DNA from: a virus
Length of the DNA stretch: 64,000 bases
Virus record (IMG/VR): IMGVR_UViG_3300025073_000043
Span: 1 to 64,000 of that record
Reading direction: 5' to 3' (one strand)
Within the stretch, counting starts at the first letter, position 1, and every line of letters starts with the position of its first letter. The notes under the pieces were generated by a model. That model worked only from the letters and a program-made list of their open reading frames with translations, was not told the origin of the DNA and did no database searches. Shown here one piece after another: positions 26,184-58,800 of the stretch. Both the position numbers and the translations under genes were made by a program.

Positions 26184-26287
26184 ATCACACCCCTAAACGG
26201 CACTCACCGTAGTCCATCGGCGCGCCATTGTCCACGAAAAAAGACCGTAGAAAAAATCGGACGAAAAATGACAGAAAATCCGAGCGA

Positions 26288-36404: not shown

Positions 36405-36922
36405 CAGCCTATCCACCTGATACCGGCAAGGCGCGGACCAACAACGCGCATCGTGATTGTCGCTTTGGCGTGGAATGGAGAACCCGTAACCAGGTCATAC
36501 CCGCCGGTCTCGGCGATCTGGACGTCCACCAGGTAGCCGGTCCATGACCGTTTCGGCGTACCGGCGTCGAGGGGCGGGCCTTCGATCGCCATCGGCAACA
36601 TCGAGATCGTGACTTTGTGCGGCGGTGTCGCTATTCCGCCGTCTGCCGTGGTTTGGTAGTCCGGGTAACACAGTGACTGCAACCAGGCAATGTCTTCAAT
36701 CACGTTCTGCGGCGTTCTGGTATCCCCCACTTCAAGCGACGAACAGATCATCGTTTGGAAAGAAACAGTCTGCCCCTCGGTGTGCGAGTATCCGATGTGC
36801 GGATCGGATGTACCGCGGACTGCCTCCTCGGGATATGTCGCACGGGCGCCGTATGCGGGCTGCTCTTGCATGAGTACGGTAATCGACGCTGCGGTCACCG
36901 TATCGAGAACAGTTAATTTCAT
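36404..36922 (-). CDS. Putative tail/baseplate connector protein (172 aa)
   Basis: The protein is beta-rich with a Thr/Ser-rich start (LTVLDTVTAASITVLMQ) and a final strand AKATITMRVVG. It directly follows the tape-measure gene with an ATGA overlap, the slot for proteins that connect the tube to the baseplate. No domain is recognised. Confidence 0.55.
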   Translation of the reverse strand: MKLTVLDTVTAASITVLMQEQPAYGARATYPEEAVRGTSDPHIGYSHTEGQTVSFQTMICSSLEVGDTRTPQNVIEDIAWLQSLCYPDYQTTADGGIATPPHKVTISMLPMAIEGPPLDAGTPKRSWTGYLVDVQIAETGGYDLVTGSPFHAKATITMRVVGPRLAGIRWIG

Positions 36923-41537: not shown

Positions 41538-43901
41538 TTACAGCTTGAAGTTGCCGACGTATTCCTCGAACGTGACTCCGGCCGGTGTGACGATCCATTT
41601 GATGTAGATACGCTCTGCCGTCTCGGGGAATTCGACCCAGCAGTAACCCTGCGCTGAGTTGGCCTGCGGGAGCACGGCCGGATCGTTGGTGATGGCGTTG
41701 CACTTCGACTCGAAGTTCTTGATCCCGCCGCCGGACTTGACGTACCCGCACGCCTTATCTATGACGGATTTGATGTTGCCCCACAGGGTCGAGTCTGAAG
41801 TGTCAAACTCCAGTTCGGAAATGTACGAAGCGCCGGTGACTTCCAGCAGGGTCAGCGTCATGCGGTTGTTGATGCGATTCAGGCGGGAAGTGGACCGGAG
41901 ACCCGTGTGCTGCCCCTTCAGCATGATCCCCTTGCCCGCGACAGAGACGAGGGGGTTGACGCACTGGTTCTCAGCCTGCATCATGTCGCGCTGGTCGAAT
42001 TCGATGGAGTAGGCCACACCGAGTGCGTGAGGAACGATGCCGCGCTTCGGGCCGGCGGGCGCTTTCCAGGGTCCGCCCTGTTCGGCGGCGCGGCACATGC
42101 AATAGACTATGATACCGGACGGCGGGCAGTTGACGTTCTTGTCGTTGTACTCGTCATACACGCTGACCTCGGGCCAGGCCATGCAGGAACCGGACGCGCT
42201 GATCGGCGATGTACGGATGTTGGTGCCGTTCGACCAGCGCAAGATATCCGTCGGGTTGGTGACGGTAGCGATGGGCGGTCCGTCGAGGACGACTTGACAG
42301 TCCTTGCGGACCTCGCGGATGGCCTCCATCTCGTTCTGCACCGCCTGCTCGTCTTCACCACCGGCAGCCAGCACGTCGATCAGCACCTGTTCGCTGTTCT
42401 TGAACAGGCGCAGTGCCGCTATCTTGTCGGATGTCGCGATTGTTGCATCTCCGTCGTACCCTCCGTTGAACACGTAACCGGAAGCGAACAGCGGCTCTGC
42501 CAGGTCAGCACGTGCCGTGGTCTGAATCGGCTCAGTCGTTGCAGCGACAACAGCGCCGGACGGCAACGAGAAGTAGATGCTGCCCGCCGCGTCGGTCGCG
42601 AAGGCGGTGCGGTTCGTGTTGGCCCACGACTCCAACAGCACGCCGGACTCGTACAGATCCACGGTCCAGTTCGCCGGCGCCCCGTTAAAGACCTTGACTT
42701 CAGCAGTGAAGTTGTTACCGCGCGTGCCTTTGTAATAGCCCTGAAGCCGGACGGACGCGGGCAGGATGTAGAAGTCAAGATTCGCCAGTGTAGCAGCGAA
42801 AGCCCGATTCACCGTCAACTGTGTGTCGCTGTCAGTGGAGGTGACAACGTACACGCCGTTGTCTGTGGTCGGCGATCCCTCGTTCACGATCAGGATATCA
42901 CCGGCGACAACGCCCCACTTGCTGAAGTAGGAGAACGCCGACGTGAAGGTCTTCAGACCGATCGCGGCTGATCCGTCACCGCTTGCCGGAACGGCTCCGC
43001 CGGGACCGCCGCTGGTCGCGTCGGGATTGATGATCGTCCGCGGCTTGTAGATGTAAAAGTCCAAGTTGCTTTTGTTGCCGACAGGCAGGTCGCGGTCCAA
43101 GACAACTTGTTCTGCCGACGCGACAGAATCGACCAGGTACACGCCGTCGTCTTCGGTGCTGCCGGGCGCGGCTTCGTAGATGTGGACAATGTCGCCTGCT
43201 GCCACACCGGATGTCGTGAAGTTTTCGCCATTGACTGCAACGGACGTCAGTGTACGTGCCGACACGGTTCCGGTCGCGCCGTTCGTCTTGGCGTTGCACC
43301 GGGTCGTGTGTACCTCGAAGTTGATGATGGCGCCGGAGGCCGACAGATCAGCGGGCCAGTCCCGGTTGACGGTCAGTACACCAGCAGCTACGGCCGTGAT
43401 GATGTATGTCCCATTGCACGTATTCGCCGGGGCATCTTCGTTGATGTACAGGAAGTGCCCAACCTTCACTCCGCTGGCGATGAACCCCGGAACAGCAGCG
43501 GATGTCAGCGTGCGGACTCCGACGGCCGACAGCAGTCCGTCCGTCCCCGTTTTGAATGCCGGTGACCGCCCCCCGCGGAGAGTGCCCAGCGCCTTCACGG
43601 CCGGGTCAAGCGCCGCGTCGCACCGTACCAACTGCCCGAACCGCCCTTTGCGGAAGTACTCGCGGACAGTGTACCAGCCGTACTGGATCGAGCCCGCTGC
43701 CCAGGTCGCCTTCGGTTTGCCGAATGTCGCCAGGAAGCTGTCATGCGACGTACACAGCGTCGGAGCCGTGAGCGTGTCGGACATTGCCGGCCCCCACGTC
43801 GCGGCGAGAATGGCGCCGAGGCGCAGGTTGACGTTCAGGTTGACGGAGTACGAACGGTCGTCTTCCTGATTGTATGTGCCGGATGCGTTGTATGTCGTCA
43901 T
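41538..43901 (-). CDS. Tail sheath protein with three inserted beta modules
   Basis: The 787-residue protein is a contractile sheath subunit. The N-terminal part (1-115) and the C-terminal half (about 380-787) are the sheath core, including an AALRLFKNSEQVLIDVLAAGG segment and a C-terminal TAERIYIKWIVTPAGVTFEE strand. Between them, residues 118-200, 205-287 and 305-381 are three copies of the ~80-residue module also found in the fibre, the gpI-like protein and a neck protein. Inserted modules of this kind usually project from the tail surface. The length is well above the usual 450-660. Confidence 0.85.
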   Translation of the reverse strand: MTTYNASGTYNQEDDRSYSVNLNVNLRLGAILAATWGPAMSDTLTAPTLCTSHDSFLATFGKPKATWAAGSIQYGWYTVREYFRKGRFGQLVRCDAALDPAVKALGTLRGGRSPAFKTGTDGLLSAVGVRTLTSAAVPGFIASGVKVGHFLYINEDAPANTCNGTYIITAVAAGVLTVNRDWPADLSASGAIINFEVHTTRCNAKTNGATGTVSARTLTSVAVNGENFTTSGVAAGDIVHIYEAAPGSTEDDGVYLVDSVASAEQVVLDRDLPVGNKSNLDFYIYKPRTIINPDATSGGPGGAVPASGDGSAAIGLKTFTSAFSYFSKWGVVAGDILIVNEGSPTTDNGVYVVTSTDSDTQLTVNRAFAATLANLDFYILPASVRLQGYYKGTRGNNFTAEVKVFNGAPANWTVDLYESGVLLESWANTNRTAFATDAAGSIYFSLPSGAVVAATTEPIQTTARADLAEPLFASGYVFNGGYDGDATIATSDKIAALRLFKNSEQVLIDVLAAGGEDEQAVQNEMEAIREVRKDCQVVLDGPPIATVTNPTDILRWSNGTNIRTSPISASGSCMAWPEVSVYDEYNDKNVNCPPSGIIVYCMCRAAEQGGPWKAPAGPKRGIVPHALGVAYSIEFDQRDMMQAENQCVNPLVSVAGKGIMLKGQHTGLRSTSRLNRINNRMTLTLLEVTGASYISELEFDTSDSTLWGNIKSVIDKACGYVKSGGGIKNFESKCNAITNDPAVLPQANSAQGYCWVEFPETAERIYIKWIVTPAGVTFEEYVGNFKL

Positions 43902-43916
43902 TGATTCCTCCGCGTC

Positions 43917-44232: not shown

Positions 44233-45168
44233 TCATGCCTCCGTAAAGAACCCGGCCTCGACCGGCGTATCTGCGTCAGGCGCCGTCGTGAACGTAACGG
44301 CAACCGCTCCAGTTGTGTAATTCACAGTACCGGTAATCCCGGTTCCCGAGATCACGCCTGCACCGTCGTCGAACCCCGTTACCGTTAATCCGCCGACCGT
44401 ACCCGTCACCAGCACCGAGTATGTCTGCAAATGCATCCCGAACGTATCGCTGAAGTTCTTGTTCGCTCCATCGCCGGTACCGAGCGGGTGTCTACGTGGG
44501 CTGTAGATACGTTCGATCTCGTTCTGTGTGCCCCAATCGAAGAATTTGATGATGATGTTGCGGGCGACTTGTTTCTCGACCAGCGTGTTGTCGAAGATCC
44601 ACCCCTCCAGATAGTACGGAAGTGTGAAGCGCACCAACCGCTCACCGAAGCGCTCAGCCGACTCTAGGTTCGTCGTGTTGACCACGGCGTTCCCAAAGAG
44701 CAGCGTTGCCTTCTTCCAACCCCACGGATCACCGGCGTGGACAGAAAGCCACGCGTATCCGCGACCGGTCAAAAACACGAGCTTCTGAATGAGTAGGTGT
44801 GCCTCGCGCGCCGTCTCGGTCCAGATGTCGGCGGTATAGGGTATCCGGGCAAGCATCGGCATTCTGGCGGTCCGCCGCAGGAGCTTTGTTTGCTGCTGCG
44901 CCTTGGAGTAGCCCAGATTGCGGATCACGGCTGTTGATTGCCGGTCGCCGGGAAACTCAATGTTCTCGCCAGCGTACAAGGAGACCAGCGGCAGGTTGGG
45001 ACGCGACTGTCCAGACTGCAATACCGTTTTCGCTTCGATCATGGCGCGGTCTACTGGTGACGTGATCACGTTGACGGTGTGTTCTAGTACGCCGCTGCAC
45101 AGACCAACGAAAGTCTGCCGCATCGCGAGGTCATACGCCTCGAATATATCTACTGGCCTGGCGCTCAC
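44233..45168 (-). CDS. Putative tail-completion/terminator protein with added beta module
   Basis: The 311-residue protein has a core of about 225 residues with mixed helices and strands. Residues 230-311 form a GTGDGANKNF...DDGAGVISGTG...VNYTTG module, also present in the major capsid protein. It lies directly before the sheath genes, the usual slot of tail-terminator or sheath-completion proteins. Without the module the size fits such proteins. The role is inferred from position. Confidence 0.5.
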   Translation of the reverse strand: MSARPVDIFEAYDLAMRQTFVGLCSGVLEHTVNVITSPVDRAMIEAKTVLQSGQSRPNLPLVSLYAGENIEFPGDRQSTAVIRNLGYSKAQQQTKLLRRTARMPMLARIPYTADIWTETAREAHLLIQKLVFLTGRGYAWLSVHAGDPWGWKKATLLFGNAVVNTTNLESAERFGERLVRFTLPYYLEGWIFDNTLVEKQVARNIIIKFFDWGTQNEIERIYSPRRHPLGTGDGANKNFSDTFGMHLQTYSVLVTGTVGGLTVTGFDDGAGVISGTGITGTVNYTTGAVAVTFTTAPDADTPVEAGFFTEA

Positions 45169-45563
45169 CTATCCCCCGTATCAGGCGCGCGCCCGCCTTC
45201 CATGACAGTAAGCAGCGTGCGGTTCAACTTGTTGAACGCCGCTGTCATTTCACCGACGCGGGCCTCTAATTCAGAAAACCGCTCCATCGCGTTTGTGTTG
45301 GACTGCTTGACAAGCGCAATGTCCTGCTGTGCTGTCGAGAATGAACCGAGGTACGCCTTTTGCTGGAGCAGGCAGTGATTCTGAATCAGCAAGGCGGCGT
45401 CATCTTTCTTGACGACCTTACGTTCGAGATCCACTACCATCTCGTATGCCGTTGTAGTCCGTTTTACCAAGTACAGAAACAGCGGGATTCCGATACCAGC
45501 GATAATCGCTGTGATGACACTCAGGATTGGAAAGACTGCGCCTACAGCACTAGTTTCTTCCAC
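45165..45563 (-). CDS. Membrane-anchored coiled-coil protein (132 aa)
   Basis: Residues about 10-33 (VFPILSVITAIIAGIGIPLF and onward) form one clear membrane helix, followed by a charged coiled coil to residue 120. This is a type seen in holins, spanins and phage anti-superinfection proteins. It overlaps its downstream neighbour by ATGA. A membrane protein here, inside the neck and tail operon, is unexpected. Confidence 0.6.
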   Translation of the reverse strand: MEETSAVGAVFPILSVITAIIAGIGIPLFLYLVKRTTTAYEMVVDLERKVVKKDDAALLIQNHCLLQQKAYLGSFSTAQQDIALVKQSNTNAMERFSELEARVGEMTAAFNKLNRTLLTVMEGGRAPDTGDR

Positions 45564-45595
45564 AGTAGACCTCGGCGGTACGGGACGGAACCATA

Positions 45596-46363
45596 CTACT
45601 GCTTCGGGGGTTCTGCCGGCGGCGGCGTCCCGCCATCAGGCGGGGACACCGCGTCTTCGGGTGGGAAGATGTCTTCATCGTCTTCATCTTCCTCATCCGG
45701 CTCTTCTTCGGACTCCGGGTCGAAGTAGAGATCCAGTTCATCCTCGGGGAGTGTGAGTTTCGCCGTCAGGAAATCGGGCGTCTTCTTCCCTCCGCCCTCT
45801 GCCGGCTTGTCGCCGTCGGGCTTCGGCGGGTCCACCGGCGGCACGGGCGGGTCGGGCGGGTCGGTGTCGGCCCCCTCTTCCTTCTTGCCGGGCTCAGCCG
45901 GCTTCTTCTCACCGTCAGGCGCCGTATCGTCTTCGCTCCGCGGTAGGATCTTCTCGACCGAACGGAGCGCCAGCGTCAACTGCTCGTCCTCCTCCGACTT
46001 CTCGACGATTTCGATCTTGACCCTGGTTCCGGCAGGGATCGTCTCTACCGGCTGAAGCAGGACGTAAGAGAAGCCCTCCTGCACCGCTTCGGTAATTGCT
46101 TTCACGTTGACCAGCATCTTGACCGCTATGTCGATGCGGAGTTGGTTCAGGTGCGGGAAGTTCACCGCCAGGAACTCGGCGACGTCCTTCGCGTTCGGCT
46201 TCAGTCTGCCCGCAGCGATCTCTGCTTTCGCCGTATCGACCAGCGGGCCGACACGCAGGTCTTCCAGCATTGAGACGAACGCCTCGACAACAGCGCCGGG
46301 CTGTGCCCCGCGCATCACATGCTCAGTCCAGTGCCGAACCGTTGCCCGTGTCTTCTTGCTCAT
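45596..46363 (-). CDS. Hypothetical protein with long acidic Pro-rich tail (255 aa)
   Basis: Residues 1-135 are helical and folded; the remaining 120 are low complexity, rich in Pro, Asp and Glu (DPPDPPVPPVDPPKP and repeated EEDE blocks). Such acidic tails occur in DNA-mimic and scaffolding proteins. It overlaps the upstream gene by 4 bases. No domain is recognised. Confidence 0.6.
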   Translation of the reverse strand: MSKKTRATVRHWTEHVMRGAQPGAVVEAFVSMLEDLRVGPLVDTAKAEIAAGRLKPNAKDVAEFLAVNFPHLNQLRIDIAVKMLVNVKAITEAVQEGFSYVLLQPVETIPAGTRVKIEIVEKSEEDEQLTLALRSVEKILPRSEDDTAPDGEKKPAEPGKKEEGADTDPPDPPVPPVDPPKPDGDKPAEGGGKKTPDFLTAKLTLPEDELDLYFDPESEEEPDEEDEDDEDIFPPEDAVSPPDGGTPPPAEPPKQ

Positions 46364-46929
46364 GTTCTCTCCTTACGGCCGGCGTCGATTGAGCGCGCCA
46401 GCGCAGTCATCTGATCGAAATCCCGCCAGTTGATATGGTCCCACGCCTCACTTTCGACCTGCGACAGCAACTGCCGCAGCTTGTCCTGAAGGTGAGTCTT
46501 TGCCGTGTCTACTGTCATCGTGCCGACACCGCCGACACGAACCGGCGGATCATCGCCGATGTCGTCTTTCAGCCCGAGATCCGCACCGGGCGCTTCGTTC
46601 AACGCCGCCCGGAGCGAGGAAACTTCAACCGCCTCGGACTGTGCGTGCGGAGCGAGAGCGCCCTTGGCGTGCGCTGCACGGCGGAAAGTAGTATAGGCAT
46701 GAACACGCGCGGCTTGGTCGATGTCGGCGTATTCTGTCGGAGCGCCGAAGTACGCCTGTACGGCACTCTCTGCCGCTTCTTTCGCCGTCCGATACTCGTC
46801 GGAGTTGACGCCGTTCTGCCGCTTCACCCACAACAAACGGCGAAACGCCGTGAGTGCCGAACGAATCTGTTCGTCCGACACGTCTTCATGCAGTATGCGG
46901 AGAAAGCTCTGTTTTGCCGTGTCTGTCAT
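46360..46929 (-). CDS. Hypothetical neck-region protein (189 aa)
   Basis: ATG at 46929 overlaps the upstream stop (ATGA); longer frames are less likely. The protein is helical throughout, with charged helices and a Gly-rich linker (VRVGGVGTM). It may be a neck or completion component by position only. Confidence 0.55.
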   Translation of the reverse strand: MTDTAKQSFLRILHEDVSDEQIRSALTAFRRLLWVKRQNGVNSDEYRTAKEAAESAVQAYFGAPTEYADIDQAARVHAYTTFRRAAHAKGALAPHAQSEAVEVSSLRAALNEAPGADLGLKDDIGDDPPVRVGGVGTMTVDTAKTHLQDKLRQLLSQVESEAWDHINWRDFDQMTALARSIDAGRKERT

Positions 46930-47309
46930 ATCTGTGCCATCGCCTTCTTGATCTGGTGGATGACGCCGCGCCACGCCTGATGCGGTCGGATACCAAGTGA
47001 GACGGACCCGTACTCGTAAAGCCGCAAGCGACGCCACATCTCAGGGTCTATTCTCACAGCATACGCTCCGGGGGTTTCGATGATGGTCACGCTGTCAACA
47101 ACGGCAGAATAGGTGATCTTGTACTCGGCAGGGACAGTGACATCGGTTCCAACGGCCGACAGTTGCGACTCAATGCGCTTCAGCACCTCGGCGCGGACTG
47201 CATACGCCCTTGCTGCCATCTTGCTCTGCTGCGCCTGCACGACTTCAGGCCGGCGACGAAGGATAACGTCGGTGATCTTCTTTCCCTTGGTTCCGCTATC
47301 GAATGTCAC
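46926..47309 (-). CDS. Putative head-tail joining protein (127 aa)
   Basis: The start is GTG at 47309, overlapping the upstream TGA (GTGA) with GGGGGAG nearby. The protein has a basic N-terminus, one long helix, then a beta sheet (YKITYSAVVDSVTIIE) and a final helix. This form resembles HK97 gp10-type tail completion proteins, but the match is weak. Confidence 0.5.
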   Translation of the reverse strand: MTFDSGTKGKKITDVILRRRPEVVQAQQSKMAARAYAVRAEVLKRIESQLSAVGTDVTVPAEYKITYSAVVDSVTIIETPGAYAVRIDPEMWRRLRLYEYGSVSLGIRPHQAWRGVIHQIKKAMAQI

Positions 47310-47659
47310 GGTGTGAAGATCTCCCCCGTGGCTTTGTTCACATACAGCGTCTTGAAGCACCAGATCCGGTCTAGCTGCAGACTCACGGCAACGTCATCCA
47401 GCGGTAACTCCGCCAATCGAGACCGTACCTGGACTTCTGTGGCGTCCAAGTCCTTGCCGCTTTCGGTGATTACGAATTTCTCGTCGTCAGTCAACTGGAT
47501 ACGGAATATGTCCTGCGGTTGCATCCGACTTGCGGCGTGTGCTGCCGCTGATCTGTGCACACGGTCTGCTACCGCCTCGATGTCGGCAACCATCTCGCTC
47601 TGCAACTCGATGCGCCGGCGGATCACTTCACTCGGCGTCAGTGGTTCGTATACCCGCAC
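47306..47659 (-). CDS. Hypothetical neck-region protein (117 aa)
   Basis: The start is GTG at 47659, joined to the upstream stop as TAGTG. A long helix at the N-terminus (PSEVIRRRIELQSEMVADIE) is followed by a beta-rich C-terminal half. No motif is recognised; it is part of the head-tail connector cluster by position. Confidence 0.55.
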   Translation of the reverse strand: MRVYEPLTPSEVIRRRIELQSEMVADIEAVADRVHRSAAAHAASRMQPQDIFRIQLTDDEKFVITESGKDLDATEVQVRSRLAELPLDDVAVSLQLDRIWCFKTLYVNKATGEIFTP

Positions 47660-48411
47660 TACGCCCCCTGCACAGGTGTGACTTTCTGCTGATTCGGCGG
47701 CAGGTCTCCGCCGGTTGGAGCGGCGTCTGCGAGCAGCGCCTTACGAATGGAGTTTGCTACATCCTGCGGCGTCGCCAATCCGTCGAACTTCAGGCTCCGG
47801 TTTACCGACCCCAGAATCGGGTGACGGTAGTCCAGGTTGACATGCCCGACTGAGTTGCGGCGCTCTGCATCGTGCCCGTCGCTTACACCGATACTGAATG
47901 GAGCAGTGCAGCAGCAATACCCGTCGTTATTCGATGCGACAGCAACGGGATCGAGCCGCACGCTGAGAGAGACATCGGCCGGCTGCCCGGCGATTGACGC
48001 CGTAAGCGTGAGATGGCGGGATACGTCGCCGCTTGCCGGCCAGCACGGCGTCGGTTCCTCTTTCCCTGCGTGCTCCAAGGGTCCGATCTTGCCGAGTCCA
48101 TCCAGTCCGGCAATCACGGCGTCAAGGAATGCCCGAGTCTGTCCGTACAACACCGCCGCCAAGCAACCGGGCACTTGGCGGTAATCCTGTGTCTTCACGA
48201 CTTCGGGCTTGTGGATCGGGTACGCATCACCGACCCATTCGACCAGTGTGCGTCGCCCATCCGACGGACGGATTTCATGCAGGTTCTTCGGCTGCTGGCC
48301 CTCGTCGAGTGTACGGTGACCGGGAGAGCGCTGTACCAGCGAAAGCGCAGGATCGTCGGACGCAGACGAAAGCTGTGTCAGTTCACGAAATCTGTCAGAA
48401 GCATCCGTCAT
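47659..48411 (-). CDS. Hypothetical neck-region protein (250 aa)
   Basis: The protein has a polar N-terminus and a middle beta domain (HLTLTASIAGQPADVSLSVRL) followed by a CCC run. The C-terminus is a helix then a Pro/Gln tail. It overlaps its upstream neighbour by ATGA. No family is recognised. Confidence 0.55.
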   Translation of the reverse strand: MTDASDRFRELTQLSSASDDPALSLVQRSPGHRTLDEGQQPKNLHEIRPSDGRRTLVEWVGDAYPIHKPEVVKTQDYRQVPGCLAAVLYGQTRAFLDAVIAGLDGLGKIGPLEHAGKEEPTPCWPASGDVSRHLTLTASIAGQPADVSLSVRLDPVAVASNNDGYCCCTAPFSIGVSDGHDAERRNSVGHVNLDYRHPILGSVNRSLKFDGLATPQDVANSIRKALLADAAPTGGDLPPNQQKVTPVQGA

Positions 48412-49094
48412 GTCGAAATCCTCCGCTTGTGCGTGACTTCACTTGAACCGAGCCACCGCACATGAACGCCACTACCTGTGAAGAGATCGTCGGGTCTGAT
48501 GTCGGTGATCTCCTGTTCCCGCCCTTCGTCGTCCACGAACCTGTCGCCGACTTTGGGTGTGATGGAGTTATCCTCCAGCGTCTTTGCTGCGAATACCAGG
48601 ATACCGTTTCGCGGACGGTCGTAACCGTATTTTGTGCAGACAACGGGGGACGGGTCCATGATCAACAGGAACGGGATCGCCGCTGTCGCGGTCCATGCAA
48701 CCGAACCCGAAGCCGGATCACCGTACACGTCGTGGTAAATGACCTCGTAGGGCAACCCCGTCTTACCGCCGTAAGGCCAGTCACTGTCTACTTTTAGCGT
48801 AGTGACATTGACGATCTGCACCACCTTGTAATCGCCGTTGTCGAAATCATCTGTAACCCCGGCAATCCGGAGCAGAGAGTTCACCAGTACGGTTGTCGAG
48901 AAATCCTTTGTTGTGTCGGTGAACAGCCGGTTAGTCACGACGGCACTGGTAGCGCCGACGGTTCCGCTGATAGCGGCGATCTGCGATTGCCGATACAAGA
49001 CGCGGTTCGGCCGGTAAAGCTCACCGTATTCTCCGGCGCGTGCCTTCAGGTACGCTGCATCTTGCGCTGACTGGAATAGGTTCGACTGTGTCAT
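48408..49094 (-). CDS. Head-tail connector candidate carrying the shared beta module (228 aa)
   Basis: Residues 47-120 are one copy of the ~75-residue module found in the fibre, sheath and gpI-like proteins (GATSAVVTNRLFT, then DNGDYKVVQIVN, then SDWPYG). The rest (121-228) is beta-rich with VGDRFVDDEGREQEI, as in small connector or stopper proteins. It may be a neck protein that displays the module at the head-tail joint. Confidence 0.6.
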   Translation of the reverse strand: MTQSNLFQSAQDAAYLKARAGEYGELYRPNRVLYRQSQIAAISGTVGATSAVVTNRLFTDTTKDFSTTVLVNSLLRIAGVTDDFDNGDYKVVQIVNVTTLKVDSDWPYGGKTGLPYEVIYHDVYGDPASGSVAWTATAAIPFLLIMDPSPVVCTKYGYDRPRNGILVFAAKTLEDNSITPKVGDRFVDDEGREQEITDIRPDDLFTGSGVHVRWLGSSEVTHKRRIST

Positions 49095-49183
49095 GCGGCG
49101 GGGTTCTCGGCGCGCTTCGGGCTCTTGAACTTTGAGTCCCGAGTTTCAGTCAACTCTAGGAACCGGGAGAGCGCAGCATCCAT
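49091..49183 (-). CDS. Micro-ORF upstream of the connector gene (30 aa)
   Basis: ATG at 49183 has an AAGGGAGTG site. The 30-residue peptide starts with one amphipathic helix (MDAALSRFLELTETR) and ends basic. Its TGA overlaps the next ATG (ATGA), so translation is coupled. It may be a leader that sets expression of the connector, or a tiny structural peptide. Confidence 0.45.
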   Translation of the reverse strand: MDAALSRFLELTETRDSKFKSPKRAENPAA

Positions 49184-49205
49184 CAGTTCACTCCCTTCGT
49201 GCTTG

Positions 49206-50636
49206 TCATGCCCCCGCCCGCGGCGTAGCGCCGGCTTTCTTCAGTGCCAGCCTGAGTGCCTGTGCCGCCCGCTTCCGGTTGGTCTCCGTGCTGATAGCGT
49301 CGGTCGCCGGCCGGTCAAGCAGCCACAAGGCAAACTCCATTGTCTTGCGGTCACTGACCGCGTCGGTCGTCGCGGGGTCGGTTGCTTCGTGCAGCCGAGT
49401 GAGCAGGCGGCTTTTCGGTCCCGTAGTCTTCGCTTCACCGATAGAACTCACGGTAGACTCGTCCCCCCCTGTTTCCGCTATGCGATCGGTACCGATCCGT
49501 GCTGCTTTCTGGTAGTGAAGCTCGTCAGGATCGCCGTCGTCGTCCAGGCCGACTTCGTCATCGCCTACGAATACGGTCTGCTTGCTGAACTTGTCCTGGA
49601 GTTCAGGATCTTCGACGTAACCCTTCAGGTACGTGTACTCGCTCACGTTGAACCCGTCGAAGCCGCGCTCGACCACGGTTCCGTACTCGCTGTCCTTGCC
49701 GCCCGGACCGTACCACGTTGCCGTATCTCTGACAAACTCGTCAGGCTGCCGGAACGTGTCCTGCTTCGCTGCTTCGGCAAGGAACTGCCGATAGAGCGGG
49801 AGCAGGCCCTTGACCGATTCCGACATCATGTCGTCCACGGCGGCGTCGGTGAACGATTCGTTCGTCCGCTTCCTGGACTCTGAAATCTTCATCGACTTGA
49901 TCGCCTCGGGGACGGCCCCCTTCAAACCGAAATCGGACGGGTTGATCCCGCCGACCTGCACTTCCCGCAGGAATGTGTCCGCCATCTGCTTTGCCGCAGC
50001 TTGCCGCGTCGGCTTGGGGAACTGAGCGGACCACGAGTGCCCCGGTGTTCCGTGGATGCTGGCGTACTTCTTGGCCCCGGCGTCTGCCAGGTAGAGCCAC
50101 AAAAGCGGCGCCTTCGTGTGGTCATACTCACCCTTCACGATCTTGCGGAGCAGGTTCTGGTGTATCGGTGTCGTCCGCTGCCGGTACAGGTCGCCGTCGT
50201 TGTCGATGAAGAGAACGAGTTCATTCGCGCTGACCGTGTCCTGACCGGAACCCGGAGCATCCCGATCGAAGCGACCCTCGTTCTTCTGCCCCAGCCCCGC
50301 GGCGCGTTCCAGTCGGGTCGCCAGCCGCTGAGCGGACGACTCAGAATTCTTCCGCAGGTTCGCTATTGCTGCGATCAGCGTGTCCCGGTTTACCGCATGC
50401 CCGCCGTACAGGAACGATCCTGCGGCGTAGATCGGATCACTGGCACTGGAGTGCCAGTCCATCATCGCCAGCCCGAGCCGTTTCGCTTCAGCCGGTTCGA
50501 TGGTGATCAGCGGTTCGTCGCCAGTGTCTTCATTGACTACGCCGGGACCGGCAGCGGGCTTACTCGTGCTCGGCCTCGACCCGGTCAGGATGGACTTGAA
50601 CGCGTTGCCTGCGTCAATCTGTTCGTGCACTTTCAT
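49206..50636 (-). CDS. Hypothetical protein in head-neck region (476 aa)
   Basis: The protein has a polar start, a helical middle containing MMDWHSSASDPIYAAGSF, then DELHYQKAARIGT and a basic helical end (NRKRAAQALRLALKK). It has no membrane segment or catalytic motif I can name. By position it could be an internal head or neck protein. The L-x-E leader of the genes at 55.5-63.1 kb is absent. Confidence 0.6.
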   Translation of the reverse strand: MKVHEQIDAGNAFKSILTGSRPSTSKPAAGPGVVNEDTGDEPLITIEPAEAKRLGLAMMDWHSSASDPIYAAGSFLYGGHAVNRDTLIAAIANLRKNSESSAQRLATRLERAAGLGQKNEGRFDRDAPGSGQDTVSANELVLFIDNDGDLYRQRTTPIHQNLLRKIVKGEYDHTKAPLLWLYLADAGAKKYASIHGTPGHSWSAQFPKPTRQAAAKQMADTFLREVQVGGINPSDFGLKGAVPEAIKSMKISESRKRTNESFTDAAVDDMMSESVKGLLPLYRQFLAEAAKQDTFRQPDEFVRDTATWYGPGGKDSEYGTVVERGFDGFNVSEYTYLKGYVEDPELQDKFSKQTVFVGDDEVGLDDDGDPDELHYQKAARIGTDRIAETGGDESTVSSIGEAKTTGPKSRLLTRLHEATDPATTDAVSDRKTMEFALWLLDRPATDAISTETNRKRAAQALRLALKKAGATPRAGA

Positions 50637-50929
50637 CTCTTGCCTCCAACTCTCACAACATACTCAATAAGGTAGTCCAGTCCTTCAAGCACTTCGGGTC
50701 TGGTGTAGAATCGTACATCTTCCTGAAGATGCCCACGTGCAGCGAGTAGGGCCGCCGCAACATCGCTGGTTGATGCAAGCGGTCGGCGGAACAACGACTT
50801 CGACGCCAGCACCCCCTCGGCAATATCCGCATCGAATGTATCAGTGAGCGCTTCGTGTAGTACCTGTTCCGGTCGGCCCCCGTCAACCACCGCCTGTACC
50901 AGGTCTCGAACGAGGTCTTCATCCATCAT
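50633..50929 (-). CDS. Hypothetical small helical protein (98 aa)
   Basis: ATG at 50929 overlaps the upstream TGA (ATGA). The protein is helical and acidic at the start (MMDEDLVRDLVQAVV) and basic at the end. Function is unknown; it is part of the neck operon. Confidence 0.55.
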   Translation of the reverse strand: MMDEDLVRDLVQAVVDGGRPEQVLHEALTDTFDADIAEGVLASKSLFRRPLASTSDVAAALLAARGHLQEDVRFYTRPEVLEGLDYLIEYVVRVGGKR

Positions 50930-51630
50930 GCCCTCAGCGGCACGCCGATCTCGCCGATCCTGTTACGCAGTTCCTGCTCCAACAGCGGCAACTCGTCCTT
51001 TGCTTCCTGAAGCAGGGCGGGACCGTCCATTTGAAACTCGTGCTCGGCCCCGCGGACGACGGCGTACTTCGACCGCTGTCGCCCGAGCGGCATCTTCGCC
51101 GTCGCCAGCGTGTACCGCAGAAACCAGTCCTCGTCATCAGGCAGTATATCCGTCACAGCCCGATCTTCCAGATACGTGTAGACGCCGGTCGTACTCTCAG
51201 TAACGTTGGATGCGATCCACAGCGTGTGTGTGTCACGCTCCCAATCCCACTCCAGATTTGCCGACAGTACCTGTGCCGCTAGAGCCAAGTGCGCTCGGTC
51301 CGTAATGAACTCGTCGAGTCTGAGCGGCTGTCGAACCATCTGATACGGGTTGAAGATGTCAACCGACGCAAGAACCGGACGCGCACGCGGCTTCAGTTGG
51401 AAGTCTACCAGACCTTTACCGTATGTCGTCAACACGTATTTCTGTACTCCGGCTGTCACGGCGATCTGTGCTTCCTTACGAAACGGGCGATACCGATTGT
51501 ACAGCCGCAATGCTTGATTCTGGCACTCAGTGATCATGTTCGGTGTGAGTTCGACCACGACACCGGACGTGGTGTCCTGGCCGAGCATCCGCTTGACGTA
51601 ATCACTTACGATAGTTGCTGAGAGTGCCAT
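50926..51630 (-). CDS. Neck/connector protein, T4 gp13-like candidate (234 aa)
   Basis: The protein starts with helices (IVSDYVKRMLGQD, then ITECQNQALRLYNRYRP). A strand region follows (EAQIAVTAGVQKYVLT), then WDWERDTHTLWIASN and a long C-terminal helix. This order is common in neck proteins that bind the portal, and it is the first gene after the capsid gene. Assignment is by pattern and place. Confidence 0.5.
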   Translation of the reverse strand: MALSATIVSDYVKRMLGQDTTSGVVVELTPNMITECQNQALRLYNRYRPFRKEAQIAVTAGVQKYVLTTYGKGLVDFQLKPRARPVLASVDIFNPYQMVRQPLRLDEFITDRAHLALAAQVLSANLEWDWERDTHTLWIASNVTESTTGVYTYLEDRAVTDILPDDEDWFLRYTLATAKMPLGRQRSKYAVVRGAEHEFQMDGPALLQEAKDELPLLEQELRNRIGEIGVPLRA

Positions 51631-51649
51631 GTATTAGTGAGTGCTGCGA

Positions 51650-51696
51650 CTTGGGCCGGGAGACCCGGCGTCAGGGGGGAGGCCCCCCAGCCCAAG
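51650..51696 (-). promoter_or_regulatory. Predicted three-way-junction RNA after the capsid gene
   Basis: CTTGGG and CCCAAG (51650-51655, 51691-51696) form an outer stem. Inside are two perfect hairpins: CCGGG-aga-CCCGG (51656-51668) and GGGGGG-agg-CCCCCC (51674-51688). The element fills most of the 84-base gap after the capsid stop. There is no T-run, so it is not a standard terminator. It may stabilise the capsid mRNA or limit read-through to the neck genes. Confidence 0.55.
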
Positions 51697-51714
51697 CGCG
51701 GGGACTGACGAACG

Positions 51715-53130
51715 TTACACCGGGAGCGAAGTACAGGTGCCAGTGCAGTAGAACCCGCCGTCCACGACCTTCTTGCCATACCTGCTCCAGATGCCGAAGC
51801 GGGTGAGGAAGTCGGTCAGGGTGACGGGCGGCACGTGCTCGAACATCTGGTACGGGGAGAAGATGTACCCGGTATCCCACATTTCCTCGCCCTTGTGCCC
51901 CATGCAGTACGTCGCGCGGGCCATGTACGAGTTGATGTAGACTTCCCAGGTTCCGTTCAGCGTTCCGATGTGCTGGATGCCGCGGCCGGAGATCTTCTTG
52001 CCGTTGCCCTTGAAACCAGGCAAGGTCTCGATGACGTTGCAGACACCGACGCCGGCGACAATCCAGTCACCGCGTGCACGCTGCGTGGTCTCGTAAATCT
52101 TGTTGCTAGCACCGACCAGCGTGTCCACGATCGACAGCTTGTGCTCGGTGTACGACACTCCGGCGGGGGGGGTGGCACTCCACGCCACCTGCTGGTTGGT
52201 AGCAATCCTGATGCAGTCGTTGATGACCTTCTGGTCGATCTCGAACTTGGCCTGGCTCACCTGCGCTGACATCAGTTCGACATCGGCCGACTTGCCGTGC
52301 ACAACCCTGAAGTCCATCGCCGATTCAAGCGACAACTTGCTGATCAGCTTGTCAGTGACTGCGGTCACCGGCGAACCGGTGATCACGAAGTCAAGCTCGG
52401 CCTGAAGGCTATTGCCTTCGTTGTCATAGTCGTATGTCACGACGACGGCAGCGCCCGCGGTGGGAGCGGCAGTCCAGGTGATCGAGTACGCCCCGGTCGA
52501 GTAGTTGATCGTGCCCGTGCCGGAACCGGAGAGCACACCAGCGCCGTTGTCGGTCACGATCTGCGTATCGCCGTCGGAGAACAGCATGGTACCGGAGTGA
52601 ACCGGAACCCATGACAGCGTACCGGCGAATACCTGCGTGGCACCGTCACCGGTACCGATCGACTCGCCTTCGATGGTCTTCGACCCGAAGTTCGTGCTCG
52701 GGTTGGTCAGGATGTCCTGCCCCGCCTTCGCTGCGCCCTTCGTGACGCCGTACAGGAACTTCATAAAGAAGACCATCGACGTCGGGCCGTTCATCGCCTG
52801 GATGGAGACCAGGTCGTGAGCGATCAGGTTCGGGAACACCGCAGCGATGACCGGGTAGGACCAGCGGTCGAACGAGCCGACGTAGGAGAGACGGGTCGTC
52901 TCTTCCAGACTCCGGTAGTACACGTTCTGGTTGTGGAGGAGGAGGGCGGTCTGCTGCCGCTTCTTCTCGTCTTTGATCCCCTCCAGCAACTCGCCCATCG
53001 TCCACTTCATCGTGTTGCCGTCGGGCATCTTGCCCTCGTACAGGCAACGGTCCTTGCGGCTGACCAGCGACTCGCAGAGATTCTGGTTCTCCGTTACGCC
53101 GCGTTTGTACTCTTCGGAAAGGATGATCAT
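51715..53130 (-). CDS. Major capsid protein, T4 gp23-like, with inserted beta module
   Basis: The 471-residue protein has the gp23 fold landmarks: SYPVIAAVFPNLIAHDLVSIQ (about 91-111) and NGPTSMVFFMKFLYG. Residues 159-236 hold an insertion (GTGDGATQVF...DNGAGVLSGSG...INYSTG) also found in the putative tail-completion protein, placed where T4 capsid proteins have their surface insertion domain. LCE at residues 18-20 is a possible protease processing site near the N-terminus. The gene follows the protease gene by 28 bases. Confidence 0.9.
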   Translation of the reverse strand: MIILSEEYKRGVTENQNLCESLVSRKDRCLYEGKMPDGNTMKWTMGELLEGIKDEKKRQQTALLLHNQNVYYRSLEETTRLSYVGSFDRWSYPVIAAVFPNLIAHDLVSIQAMNGPTSMVFFMKFLYGVTKGAAKAGQDILTNPSTNFGSKTIEGESIGTGDGATQVFAGTLSWVPVHSGTMLFSDGDTQIVTDNGAGVLSGSGTGTINYSTGAYSITWTAAPTAGAAVVVTYDYDNEGNSLQAELDFVITGSPVTAVTDKLISKLSLESAMDFRVVHGKSADVELMSAQVSQAKFEIDQKVINDCIRIATNQQVAWSATPPAGVSYTEHKLSIVDTLVGASNKIYETTQRARGDWIVAGVGVCNVIETLPGFKGNGKKISGRGIQHIGTLNGTWEVYINSYMARATYCMGHKGEEMWDTGYIFSPYQMFEHVPPVTLTDFLTRFGIWSRYGKKVVDGGFYCTGTCTSLPV

Positions 53131-53158: not shown

Positions 53159-55516
53159 TCACCGCTGGACCTTGCTCCGGAAGATCGACATGATGTCTGC
53201 TGTTGCGGACACAGGCGAATTCAGGACGGGAAGTCCAGTATCCACACCCCGGTTCTGTCCGGGGAGAGGTTCACGTGAAGTAGAGTCGGCGGCTTCGTTC
53301 ACATTCCGCCTGTTCCGCTTGATCTGCTGCATCGCCCGCTGCTTGGCTCCGCCGACACGGCGCGTCCGCTTGGCTTCGTCCTTCGACGACTCGTCGTCGG
53401 TTCCCCAGAAGCCGTAATCACTGCCGTCGCCCTCGGAGGCGCCGAAGTAGTGACCGGCGGGGGCGTGCTCGTCCAGGGCATCGAAGAGTTCAGCGAGGAT
53501 GTCGGACGCAAGGTCCGACTGCCACCAGTCATCGTCTGCGCCCAGGTCGGACAGCGGTGTCTTCGCTGCATCCTTGATTTCCTGCTGGACCTGTTTCGCT
53601 TTGTCGGCGTCGAGATCCTCCAGTTCGTCCAGGAAGCGGGGAAGCAGATCCTGAAGCCGCATGGTGCCCCAGGAGATCGAACCGGGCGTCCCTGTCTTCT
53701 TTCCCGTGTCAGCAGCGGGAGGCGTGCTGGATTCCGGCGGCGGTGTCTCTTCGGCCTCGTTGATCTTCGCCTTCACGGCGGAACGTGCCGCTTCGTTGGT
53801 TGTGACGGACGCGAGCAAGCTGTCCAGGTCCGACTGCGGTACCGTCTTGGCCTGCGCACCGCCGAGCCAGCGGTTGATGTGCCGCGTAGTCGTGCTCGAC
53901 CATGCCTTGTCGGTACGGAAGTTTTCGCCGCCCTTTGAATACGCTACGGGCGTCCTGTACGAGAACAGGATACGCGTGCCTCCGACGACGACCTCGTTCA
54001 CATTCGGTCCGATCGGCGTCAGGCCCACACCCTCAGCGATCTGCTGCGGTTTGCGGTCTTCCTTCAACATGGAGTACGCCGGCGGTTTGCCCTTGGCATA
54101 AGCAGCACGAGCGATCAGCTTTCCGGTGCCATCCTTGTACTCCAGGACCGCCGTGTCGGGGTCAGTCGTATTCGGCTCGCCCTTCAGTCCTGCGACAGCA
54201 CGAGAGAATTCCTCCTGTGTCGTCGCTTTCAGCGCGGGTACCTGTTCGTGAATCGGCTTCGCTGCGGAAACGGCAGCACCGCCCGTCTCACTCAGCGTCT
54301 TCCACACGCGGCGGACGTCCGACTTCGTCTTGCACTCACCGAGCAGGCGGCGCGCCATCGGGGCGAACGCGGGCTTCGTGTGCCGCAGCACAGCACCGGC
54401 AACACGCGCCGTTTCTCTCTGGTTGAGCGTGTCAAGCAGCGCTTCGAGAATGCGGCCCTCGGCCTTGGCGCGAGATTCGTACAGTTTGTACCGCTGAAGC
54501 ATCTGAAGAGAACTGCCCAGCAGCCGTTCTGCCGATTCAAGCCGCTTCGCCAGCATGACATTATCCTGTGCCGATTCTGCAACAGGGCGAATTGCTGTTC
54601 CAGTTGCATTGCAATGCGGGCACGTCAACGGCCCGCCTTCAGGCAGCGATCTGCCGTCGCGCACGAACTCTTTGTGACACGATTCACACTTGTACTTCTT
54701 CGACGCCGCCTGTGACATCACAAAAGCGATGTCCTTTTTCATGCTGTCCGTGGCTTCGGTAAGTGCGGTGATCGCTGTCATTACTCGTTCGATTTCTGCG
54801 TGCGGCATAGCGGCCCCTTCCCCATTGGCTCTCTGCGAGAGCTTGGCGAGAGCATGTTCTACCAATACGGAGTCTCGGATCTCCGCCCCTAACGACGCAC
54901 ATTTTTCAATCACCTTAGTGTCAGTGGCCTCGTTTATCAGTTTCAGCAGCGGTTCGCGCACACGCGTTCGTTCCTCGGCCTCTTTCGCTTCGGAGAGCAC
55001 ACGTGGGTACGCTCCGGGGGTGGACGGCTCCAAAACGAAGTCCCAGGTAGACAGCGCGTAGTCTGCTTCGTTCACGACTTCAAGCCCGTTCTCGACAATA
55101 GTCGATCCTTTACCTCGGGATGACGTTCCGAGACCGGCCTTCGCGCGGTGCAGCGTAGCGGCAACGTGCCCGTGCGGTGTGTCGAGAATGTCATACTGGC
55201 AGTACACCGACCCGTCAGGTTCCAGCCGCGCTTCGGTAACGATATGCGACACGTCTTCGGGTTTCGACGCGTCTTCATCTTTCGGGTGTCCCAACTTCCC
55301 GAACATCCGACGTTCGGCGATCTTTGTCTTAATCGCGGGATCGTTCAGCGTTTTCTCCCACAGGGACCGCTTGTACACCCTGTTGTTCTCGTTCTTCGTA
55401 TCGGACGTCTGCGAGCGCCCACCGACGCGCATGATGATGCCGGGCGGCAGTGATCTGCGGTCTTCGGTCATCACCGTGTAGCTCGGATAGTAAGTATCGA
55501 CGATAGGCTGTAGCAT
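53159..55516 (-). CDS. Prohead protease fused to zinc ribbon and scaffold-like regions (785 aa)
   Basis: Residues 1-175 form a T4 gp21-type (S80) protease: KLGHPKDED with H77, VSHIVTEARLEPDG, DILDTPHGHVAA and TSSRGKGSTI with the nucleophile Ser 132 or 133. A coiled region follows (180-270), then a zinc ribbon (C277, C280, C299, C302), a long helical region (320-420), a beta domain with ILFSYRTPVAY and STTTRHINRWL (about 505-545), and an acidic scaffold-like end with a basic tail. It probably self-cleaves and then trims capsid and internal proteins. T4 encodes protease and scaffold as separate genes. Confidence 0.85.
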   Translation of the reverse strand: MLQPIVDTYYPSYTVMTEDRRSLPPGIIMRVGGRSQTSDTKNENNRVYKRSLWEKTLNDPAIKTKIAERRMFGKLGHPKDEDASKPEDVSHIVTEARLEPDGSVYCQYDILDTPHGHVAATLHRAKAGLGTSSRGKGSTIVENGLEVVNEADYALSTWDFVLEPSTPGAYPRVLSEAKEAEERTRVREPLLKLINEATDTKVIEKCASLGAEIRDSVLVEHALAKLSQRANGEGAAMPHAEIERVMTAITALTEATDSMKKDIAFVMSQAASKKYKCESCHKEFVRDGRSLPEGGPLTCPHCNATGTAIRPVAESAQDNVMLAKRLESAERLLGSSLQMLQRYKLYESRAKAEGRILEALLDTLNQRETARVAGAVLRHTKPAFAPMARRLLGECKTKSDVRRVWKTLSETGGAAVSAAKPIHEQVPALKATTQEEFSRAVAGLKGEPNTTDPDTAVLEYKDGTGKLIARAAYAKGKPPAYSMLKEDRKPQQIAEGVGLTPIGPNVNEVVVGGTRILFSYRTPVAYSKGGENFRTDKAWSSTTTRHINRWLGGAQAKTVPQSDLDSLLASVTTNEAARSAVKAKINEAEETPPPESSTPPAADTGKKTGTPGSISWGTMRLQDLLPRFLDELEDLDADKAKQVQQEIKDAAKTPLSDLGADDDWWQSDLASDILAELFDALDEHAPAGHYFGASEGDGSDYGFWGTDDESSKDEAKRTRRVGGAKQRAMQQIKRNRRNVNEAADSTSREPLPGQNRGVDTGLPVLNSPVSATADIMSIFRSKVQR

Positions 55517-55525
55517 ATCTGCCTC

Positions 55526-56929
55526 CTAGTTTTCCGGTAGGTCCAACTGTGTAGCCAGCAACGCCGCGTATTCACGGGTCCACCAGCCGACATTTGCAAT
55601 TTCAAACAGGGTTGTACGCGTCCCCCGCAGTACGCTGTGGATCTGATTGTCTGCGGTAACCATGGCCCGCGCTTTCTGCACGAACTGCGTGAACCATGAT
55701 GTCAGGCTTTTCGTTGTAATTGCTTTGACCTCCGGCGAAACAACGAGATCGGCGACTGCGCGTAAGAAACTTTCCAGCAGATTCCGCGACGATGTGCTGC
55801 CCCCGCCCTTCAAGACGTCTGACGGGATGTAGCCTTGGATCACGTCCACTGTCAGGCCGAGCGTTGTTTGCACTTCTTTCGTTGTCGTATTACCGACAAT
55901 AGACCGGAGCACGACGGCGAAAACCCGGCCGATGCCCGGCTGTAATGCGCGCTGCACTGTAGCGCGGAACAGGCCGGATAATAGGCTCTTGCGGAATGCT
56001 GGATCAAACTCACCCCCCAACTGCTGACGGAGCACCGACACAAAATGCAGGATACCCTCCATCGGACCGGGATGCGCCATACTCTGCATCCACGGAGCGA
56101 ATACCTGCATGAGGAGATGCCGTACCGTTGCTTCCATTTCCGCTATCCCAGCCGATGCCAGCTTTGCGGCCAGATCAGACGCATCGGTGTAGCCGGGAGT
56201 ACCGAACAGGCGTAACCGCTTCAACCACGCGTGTGTCTGCGGTGTAACGTAGGCGGCAGCGCCGGATTCGTATTCCTTGTTATCGAGCACTTCCAACACA
56301 TGCAACGGGCGCATCGAGAAGAACACCGCTTGCGTCGGTTCGTTACCGTGTATGACTGCCAGCCCCGGATCAAGAACACCGTCGAACCCAAGAATTGAGC
56401 GAAAAACAGAGTTCCACTTGTTCGGGTTGTTGGCTACCAGCAAGCGGGTCACGTTCCAGAGTTTACCGGCAGGTGTACCCACTCGGGCACAGCGTTCCCA
56501 AGCGGGAAAATCGGAATCCATTCGCTCTTGCGCCTCAGCCGCTGACGCCGTAGATCCGTCTGCTTTGTACCGCGCTAATGTAGGCTTCATCGCGGCGTAC
56601 TGTGCTGGTGTCAGGGACTCCAGGTTCAAGAAGTTTGTATCCGGCTTCACCTGTAACACGTACACCAGTGGGCGGGATTGACCGTAGGGCACGCGCATCT
56701 GACCGTGTTGAATGGCGTAGTCGATGGGATACGCGTAGATGCCGTTCGGCGTGTTGAATGTAGATTTCGGGTTGATGCCGATCTTCGGAGCACCACCAAC
56801 AGGATCACGGAACGACACGAACACGTCAGCACGCCCTCTGTACTTCGCTAGCCGATCAGAAACAGGCTCACGCGGCAGATCAACAGCACGCCGTTCGACC
56901 AGTGACTGGAATGTAGACAGCGCAGTCAT
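55526..56929 (-). CDS. Putative head-packaged effector, ART-like, paralogue 1 (467 aa)
   Basis: The leader MTALSTFQSLVE ends in L-V-E at 10-12, a fit to prohead protease sites. Residues 35-71 (DVFVSFRD, then IGINPKSTFNTPNGIYAYP) and 156-215 (GKLWNVTRLLVANNPNKWN, then IHGNEPTQAVFFS) form a domain shared with the next gene. The order of strand, TP-x-GIYAYP and EPTQAVFF resembles ADP-ribosyltransferase folds found in phage polyvalent proteins. The C-terminal 250 residues are helical. The ART link is an inference. Confidence 0.6.
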   Translation of the reverse strand: MTALSTFQSLVERRAVDLPREPVSDRLAKYRGRADVFVSFRDPVGGAPKIGINPKSTFNTPNGIYAYPIDYAIQHGQMRVPYGQSRPLVYVLQVKPDTNFLNLESLTPAQYAAMKPTLARYKADGSTASAAEAQERMDSDFPAWERCARVGTPAGKLWNVTRLLVANNPNKWNSVFRSILGFDGVLDPGLAVIHGNEPTQAVFFSMRPLHVLEVLDNKEYESGAAAYVTPQTHAWLKRLRLFGTPGYTDASDLAAKLASAGIAEMEATVRHLLMQVFAPWMQSMAHPGPMEGILHFVSVLRQQLGGEFDPAFRKSLLSGLFRATVQRALQPGIGRVFAVVLRSIVGNTTTKEVQTTLGLTVDVIQGYIPSDVLKGGGSTSSRNLLESFLRAVADLVVSPEVKAITTKSLTSWFTQFVQKARAMVTADNQIHSVLRGTRTTLFEIANVGWWTREYAALLATQLDLPEN

Positions 56930-58800
56930 GCTGCCGCCTGGTTCAGTTCCTGCTGCCGGTCATGCGCTACGTCTACCAATCGATCGAACAGCGGCCCCAC
57001 GAGGCGGGCACGGGACGCCAACGACACGACCGCCTCCAAGTCAGTGGCCGATGTAAGCCGTCGCGTAGCAGCGAAGATCGGAGGGAGTGCGTCGCTCAGG
57101 ACGCCCGCGTAGTACCGCATCGGCGAAACCAACGGAAGTGGCGACAGTAGCAATTGCAGCGCTGCAACGGGCGGCAAACCACGCGACACTGCTGAAATTG
57201 CTGCCGGAGCATCTGGCACACGGAACCCAGCGCCAATCATGCGAACCAGAAGCGCGACGGCGCGGTATTGCTTCGCTGTCTCGGATGATTCAAGCGCGGT
57301 GATCGCTTCAGCCTCGGCGCGCTGAATCAGTGTAGCGAACCCGGATTGCATTGATGCGACAAGATCGTCCGCAACCGACCGATCCGATGCATCAGCCGGG
57401 ATTGAAGTAGAACGGCCCTGCTGCAACCAAGTGGCAATAACAGACAGCACCCGGTCCTCGATGTCCTGGTCCAGATCCTTTTCTAGTAGACCAAGCGCCC
57501 GGTACAACTGACGGGCAGTAGTGATATAGCGTAATCGTGGGAACACGGTACCGCCGGGGTGTAACAACAAAGAGGGAGCGTCAAGCGCCGCTGCTTGACG
57601 GAGTCGATCGAACAGAGCGCTGGACGCCTTCCACACTGTCACAGCGTCAGCAAGAGCAGAAGGGAGGGACTGACTAGCCAGCGCCCCGGCGATAATACGA
57701 GACGCGAGTGAACCAGCTTGCGCGTCCGACAGTACCCGCGACCATGCCAGCACACCTAGTTCGACAAGAGAGACGAACTCGGTGTGGGTAGCGTAACGCC
57801 ACAGCACAGCGGCGAGTTCAGGATTATGGTTCCCTTCAAGCACAAGGCGACGTGCAATATTCAACCTCTCTGCCGTAACTGCCGCACCCCCGGATTTCGG
57901 GTCTATACCGATCCAGTCCAGCGCCGATCTAGCGGCAGTCCCGGTCATTTCCGGCAGTTCCTGTATCAGCGCTTCAATATTCAAGTACGTCTTACGCCGG
58001 AGGACGTTCGGTTCAAGCGTGACGACGTCAAATGCTTTGACGGAGAAGAATACGGCCTGCGTCGGCTCACTCGGATGGATGATACCAGCACCAAGGTCCA
58101 CGACGCCTTCAACCCCGAGCAAAGTGCGAAAGATCCAGTTCCATTTGTTCGGGTTCCGCTTCGCCGCCATGCGGGTGATATTCCAGAGTCGTCCGCCGTA
58201 GCTCTTCTGCCGAGCTTGATTCGACCACTGATTGACGGCTGACTCCGGCGATAGGCTGCGATCGTCGGAGCTATCGTCGTCTTCACCTGCTAATTCGTCT
58301 GCTGCGAAATTCTGCTGCACGTAATCAAGCAGTACGGCACGGTACCTGTCGAAGTCGGTAGACGCTAGGGCCTGGATATCCGGGATAAAAGAAACACCGT
58401 GCTTCCGCCGCAGCACGGCAACGACCGGCCTGTCACTACCGTATGGTGTGTTAAGCCGCACTTGTCCGCCATATTCATCCCACACTTCGCGCAGCGGATA
58501 GGTATAGACGCCGTTGGGTGTGCCGAAAGTTGACTTCGGGTTGATACCGATACGGGTAGCCAGCGGCAGACTCGACTTCCGTTTCTGCATGAGGTCGGCC
58601 TGTGCTTTGATCAATTCGCGTTTAGTCGGTATGAATCCGGGACGCATTACAGGCGGCGGAACAGGCGTCAGATCGCGGAACGAGACGAAGATGTCCGGGT
58701 CGTCCTTGTACTGTCGAAGTGCATCGTAAATCGTAGCGCGGGGACCGCTGTCGATTGAACGGCGTTCAGCCAGGGAACGGAACGTATTCCGCTCGTTCAT
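56926..58800 (-). CDS. Putative head-packaged effector, ART-like, paralogue 2 (624 aa)
   Basis: The leader MNERNTFRSLAE ends in L-A-E at 10-12. The same N-terminal domain as in paralogue 1 appears at about 36-103 and 202-262 (INPKSTFGTPNGVYTYP, WNITRMAAKRNPNKWN, IIHPSEPTQAVFFS). A 35-residue insertion with basic character and an acidic loop (EDDDSSDDR) distinguish it. The C-terminal 350 residues are helical and unlike paralogue 1. The two genes overlap by ATGA and probably arose by duplication with tail replacement. Confidence 0.6.
   Translation of the reverse strand: MNERNTFRSLAERRSIDSGPRATIYDALRQYKDDPDIFVSFRDLTPVPPPVMRPGFIPTKRELIKAQADLMQKRKSSLPLATRIGINPKSTFGTPNGVYTYPLREVWDEYGGQVRLNTPYGSDRPVVAVLRRKHGVSFIPDIQALASTDFDRYRAVLLDYVQQNFAADELAGEDDDSSDDRSLSPESAVNQWSNQARQKSYGGRLWNITRMAAKRNPNKWNWIFRTLLGVEGVVDLGAGIIHPSEPTQAVFFSVKAFDVVTLEPNVLRRKTYLNIEALIQELPEMTGTAARSALDWIGIDPKSGGAAVTAERLNIARRLVLEGNHNPELAAVLWRYATHTEFVSLVELGVLAWSRVLSDAQAGSLASRIIAGALASQSLPSALADAVTVWKASSALFDRLRQAAALDAPSLLLHPGGTVFPRLRYITTARQLYRALGLLEKDLDQDIEDRVLSVIATWLQQGRSTSIPADASDRSVADDLVASMQSGFATLIQRAEAEAITALESSETAKQYRAVALLVRMIGAGFRVPDAPAAISAVSRGLPPVAALQLLLSPLPLVSPMRYYAGVLSDALPPIFAATRRLTSATDLEAVVSLASRARLVGPLFDRLVDVAHDRQQELNQAAA

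Follow-up and report, generated by a model that had tools for sequence, protein, structure and literature searches.

A beta-rich module common to the capsid protein and a putative gp15-type tail terminator of one virus

Introduction

The described systems that come closest to the locus considered here are a domain of phage capsids on the one hand and tail terminators on the other. PMC12810830 describes the I-domain of the phage P1 capsid protein as beta-rich, protruding outward and touching the next capsomer. The N- and C-terminal parts of the P1 terminator form a sheet that is inserted in the top sheath ring (PMC10304247), and the terminator of phage Milano has a C-terminal arm that is buried in the corresponding ring (PMC10491603). 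Mosaicism among phage structural proteins, of Ig-like and of other domains, has been described as well (PMC10684548).

Here we analyse the IMG/VR virus record IMGVR_UViG_3300025073_000043, which comprises 79,193 bases; its first 64,000, the whole stretch under analysis, are called the window, and coordinates refer to it unless stated otherwise. Two of its structural proteins, the gp23-type major capsid protein and a 311-residue protein that is predicted to be a gp15-type tail terminator, bear the same module. The module itself is known as a capsid domain; its second place, on a terminator, is unexpected.

Results

Two copies of one module

The two segments are homologous, being copies of one beta-rich module of about 80 residues (Table 1), just as the sequence-only reading of this DNA had proposed. 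Within the 311-residue protein the segment was located at 44245-44481, just inside the limits listed for module copy 2. BLASTP aligned capsid residues 158-229 with residues 229-303 of the tail protein at 44% identity (E = 3e-11), the length common to the two proteins being about 78 residues, and a profile (A10) built from 21 module copies recovered both and revealed a third elsewhere in this record (E = 2e-8). Could the resemblance have arisen by chance, or by convergence of glycine-rich beta sequence? Its shortness and its high content of G, T, D and S would favour this, but none of 5000 shuffles came near the observed local alignment score of 135 (shuffled mean 37, maximum 75, z ~14); moreover, the order of motifs and of beta strands agrees along the entire module in both copies, and the module profile retrieved no unrelated PDB chain at E < 0.5. 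This explanation is thus highly improbable and close to refuted. The strand order comes from two AlphaFold models, in which the module is well predicted and the same run of strands recurs in both proteins. An assembly error is unlikely too, because capsid and 311-residue proteins identical to the letter were found in two further metagenome contigs.

Table 1. Coordinates of the capsid, terminator and sheath features in the 64,000-nucleotide window
Feature	Position	Strand	Evidence
Tail sheath, 787 aa	41538..43901	-	PHROG tail sheath 2.3e-44; repeat profile
Putative tail terminator / sheath stabiliser, gp15 type, 311 aa	44233..45168	-	Alignment rows vs Pfam T4-gp15_tss; Foldseek
Module copy 2, C-terminal add-on of the terminator	44236..44484	-	Profile match 2.0e-22; pLDDT 88-97; absent from 35 homologues
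Terminator core, aa 1-225	44494..45168	-	Common to homologues of 199-285 aa; alignment with SP-15 and LIS04, profile search
Major capsid protein, gp23 type, 471 aa	51715..53130	-	Pfam Gp23 8.1e-50; PHROG major head protein 2.6e-44
Module copy 1, capsid I-domain	52423..52656	-	Profile match 5.4e-30; pLDDT ~92

The third copy lies past the window, at positions 70922-71209 of the record (minus strand), within a 228-residue ORF (L137) that has no Pfam or PHROG match and to which no function was assigned. In genome G003, small module proteins resembling L137 stand side by side, with two module copies in adjoining proteins.

The capsid copy is an I-domain

The capsid protein carries its copy in the I-domain slot of gp23-type proteins, where the module is an already established domain. 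In a Foldseek search, the top matches of the capsid protein were the P1 and T4 capsid proteins, and in its model the module is flanked by strands 117-127 and 246-256, between two long P-domain/E-loop strands. The capsid profile is collinear with P1 through core and module, and also collinear with T4, and the sole significant PDB match of the module profile was to residues 226-294 of P1 gp23 (E 1.6e-4), a stretch that, judged from the alignment, probably corresponds to the P1 I-domain (the text of PMC12810830, as available, gives no residue range).

Capsid relatives were ranked on core score with the module taken out, and the best 17 were considered. The module stands at the same place in 15 of them (E < 1e-5) and, with a capsid-trained profile, was detected also in L009, making it 16 of 17; in the remaining one, L056, it was not found. 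Some capsids less closely related, those of QdP_Psa3, phiXF1 and IME392, have it too. Farther out, T4-like and cyanophage-like capsids gave no sequence match to the module and have an I-domain region in the same slot. In this branch of gp23-type capsids, use of the module is old and clade-wide. The capsid copy had initially been taken for a mobile insertion, a view that must be given up, because the segment fills the I-domain slot and nearly all near relatives, as well as P1, have it.

The terminator copy is an add-on

The identity of the 311-residue protein is carried by family and fold evidence, because its core matches that of SP-15 only weakly by sequence (E ~1e-3 in a small set). Pfam T4-gp15_tss (PF16724) was matched by 14 of the 22 rows of the terminator family alignment (best 2.4e-11), the window protein itself giving no PF16724 match. 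In the PDB, Foldseek placed T4 gp15 (4huh/4hud) first for the terminator model (E 3.8e-6), ahead of the terminators of P1, T5 and others. The model also matched the solved P1 capsid protein (E 2.7e-3) and, among predicted viral structures, gp15 proteins, one protein of a tail sheath and, over 88 columns at an rmsd of 2.0, one capsid protein; since capsid module rows were included in the alignment behind the model, its fold is not fully independent. From the family models on homologues and the fold search we infer a terminator of the T4 gp15 type, which bears out the tail-completion role suggested earlier for this protein.

Its module is a genuine add-on, that is, a lineage-specific C-terminal addition. 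The SP-15 and LIS04 homologues, of 199 residues, stop where the module starts, and among the 36 homologous ORFs returned by a family search with the terminator core, the window virus's own included, a profile search found the module in none of the other 35. The expectation that relatives would lack both segments thus held for the terminator but failed for the capsid protein. Single-sequence tblastn queries with the terminator or its module gave no match in 50,697 phage records, nor did pattern scans of genome contigs. An alignment of capsids from six phages proved too diverse for scans of this kind, and two terminator alignments, in which MAFFT had drawn core C-termini onto the module, were dropped.

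A gp15-type terminator with a different C-terminal extension, of some 220 residues and with no Pfam match, is encoded in L090 (4149-5558), which suggests that the C-terminus of terminators is a general attachment point.

Gain and loss of the module

In other viruses the module is found within tail sheaths, once in that of L028 and several times in that of L041, and in up to five copies in a siphophage tail protein. A possible second match in the tape-measure region of GXN1 was not recovered with a stronger profile and was dropped. Because terminator and two sheaths bear the module whereas their homologues are without it, it must have been gained or lost in tail proteins. The earlier proposal of active domain shuffling among structural genes is supported to that extent, for tail proteins only and not for the capsid; the word 'active' cannot be upheld, since the module tree is mostly unresolved and tells neither in which direction nor how recently the module moved.

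One rival view is that the terminator copy was duplicated recently from the capsid module of the same virus, and the two copies do share a genome, at 42-45% identity. However, the capsid module of phiXF1 (47%) and the sheath module of L028 are equally close to the terminator copy, and in the module tree the window capsid module groups with the capsid modules of its relatives (90/87). A tree constrained to join both window copies is worse by 12.7 log units (AU p = 0.08), which disfavours such a duplication without rejecting it; on balance we regard it as improbable.

Is the module exchanged between capsids as well? A single clade of capsid modules was not rejected (p = 0.148). Between the window capsid and those of QdP_Psa3 and phiXF1, cores are 24-25% and modules 47-48% identical, whereas QdP_Psa3 and phiXF1 are 61% identical in the core and 45% in the module, and across capsid proteins core and module identity correlate weakly (rho 0.22, Mantel p 0.08). 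This hints at module swapping among capsids, but conserved signature residues may instead impose a floor on module identity, and for that reason swapping is not claimed as shown. The broader notion that the I-domain of capsids belongs to a general kind of surface knob, which tailed phages exchange among capsid, sheath, sheath terminator and baseplate proteins and even swap between capsids, is tentative, and we would give it slightly short of even weight.

The other repeated module and neighbouring genes

Unlike the sheaths of L028 and L041, the window tail sheath is without the capsid-type module and carries three copies of another repeated module, from which the one studied here is distinct, as had been stated (profile-profile probability 0.7%). 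Besides these copies in the sheath (41541-43916), the other module occurs three times in a 2078-residue open frame (19959-26192), once near the C-terminus of an 860-residue open frame (26571-29150) and once in a head-tail region protein (48411-49145), all on the minus strand.

Further genes on this strand deserve mention. The prohead protease (53159-55516) is unusually long, at 785 residues, with an N-terminal protease, a possible zinc ribbon and additional domains. Upstream of it, two adjoining proteins (55526-56929 and 56926-58800) look paralogous and have the motifs DxFVSFRD and GINPKSTFxTPNGxYxYP in common. The tape measure is probably the 952-residue protein at 36919-39777, which matches a PHROG lytic tail protein and has a transglycosylase-like domain towards the C-terminal end.

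Discussion

What might one module do on both head and tail? We consider it probable that a single surface module is used twice in this virus, as an old capsid I-domain and as a lineage-specific addition to the terminator, where it would form a ring of knobs bracing sheath or collar; its exposure, copy number and bracing role are drawn by analogy with other phages. On the head, the I-domain would stick outward and staple neighbouring capsomers, as in P1. On the tail, the module would follow the arm with which the terminators of P1 and Milano reach into the uppermost ring of the sheath, and from this placement six copies may be expected to ring the top of the sheath at the neck. These six knobs could then brace or dock the sheath or collar where the tail meets the neck.

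The main rival to bracing is adhesion, the module serving on head and tail as a domain for binding host or environmental sugars. It draws on the recurrence of the module in tail proteins of further phages and on a weak alignment of the module with the C-terminal half of TIGR02217 (residues 87-177 of 210), the Rcc01695 distal-tail family, which covers the same region of module-bearing proteins as DUF2460. An oligosaccharide-binding fold has been described for an insertion domain of Rcc01695, the distal tail protein of RcGTA (PMC7296036), and that this domain and the module are the same is a lead rather than a result. The only module found here above the DUF2460 cut-off is the single one in a 347-residue protein of the huge phage LR756511 (34.1 against 30.4 bits), whereas in this virus the matches, confined to the module region, fall below the curated cut-offs of both families (15.5 against 30.4 bits for DUF2460 and 12.5 against 136.65 bits for TIGR02217). 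Moreover, no conserved binding site was found in the module, and the P1 I-domain is reported to contact capsomers. Adhesion is therefore rather unlikely, and bracing the reading that we prefer.

The module looks like a reusable surface part, because related viruses bear it on the tail sheath and on other particle proteins. A domain of solved phage capsids is thereby linked to a terminator add-on, to inserts in sheaths and to part of a distal-tail family. If this is true, assemblies of the phage particle that are otherwise unrelated have a surface part in common.

How does the locus compare with known systems? Phage Ig-like domains likewise place one beta domain on several virion proteins (PMC10684548), but neither window protein matched a Pfam Ig-like family at E up to 1 (the L028 sheath copy gave one sub-threshold match, to Big_8), and the module is a capsid I-domain. 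With the Rcc01695 families, the likeness lies in their C-terminal half, and the difference in the sub-threshold scores of this virus. T4 gp15 (PDB 4hud, 4huh) has what is predicted to be the same core fold and the same gene position, directly before the sheath; the 35 homologues of this type are without a C-terminal module, whereas the window terminator has one. Finally, the I-domain of P1 gp23 (PDB 9ukm, 9vl4) occupies the same place in the same capsid fold; in PMC12810830 it figures as a capsid domain only, whereas here a second copy ends a tail terminator.
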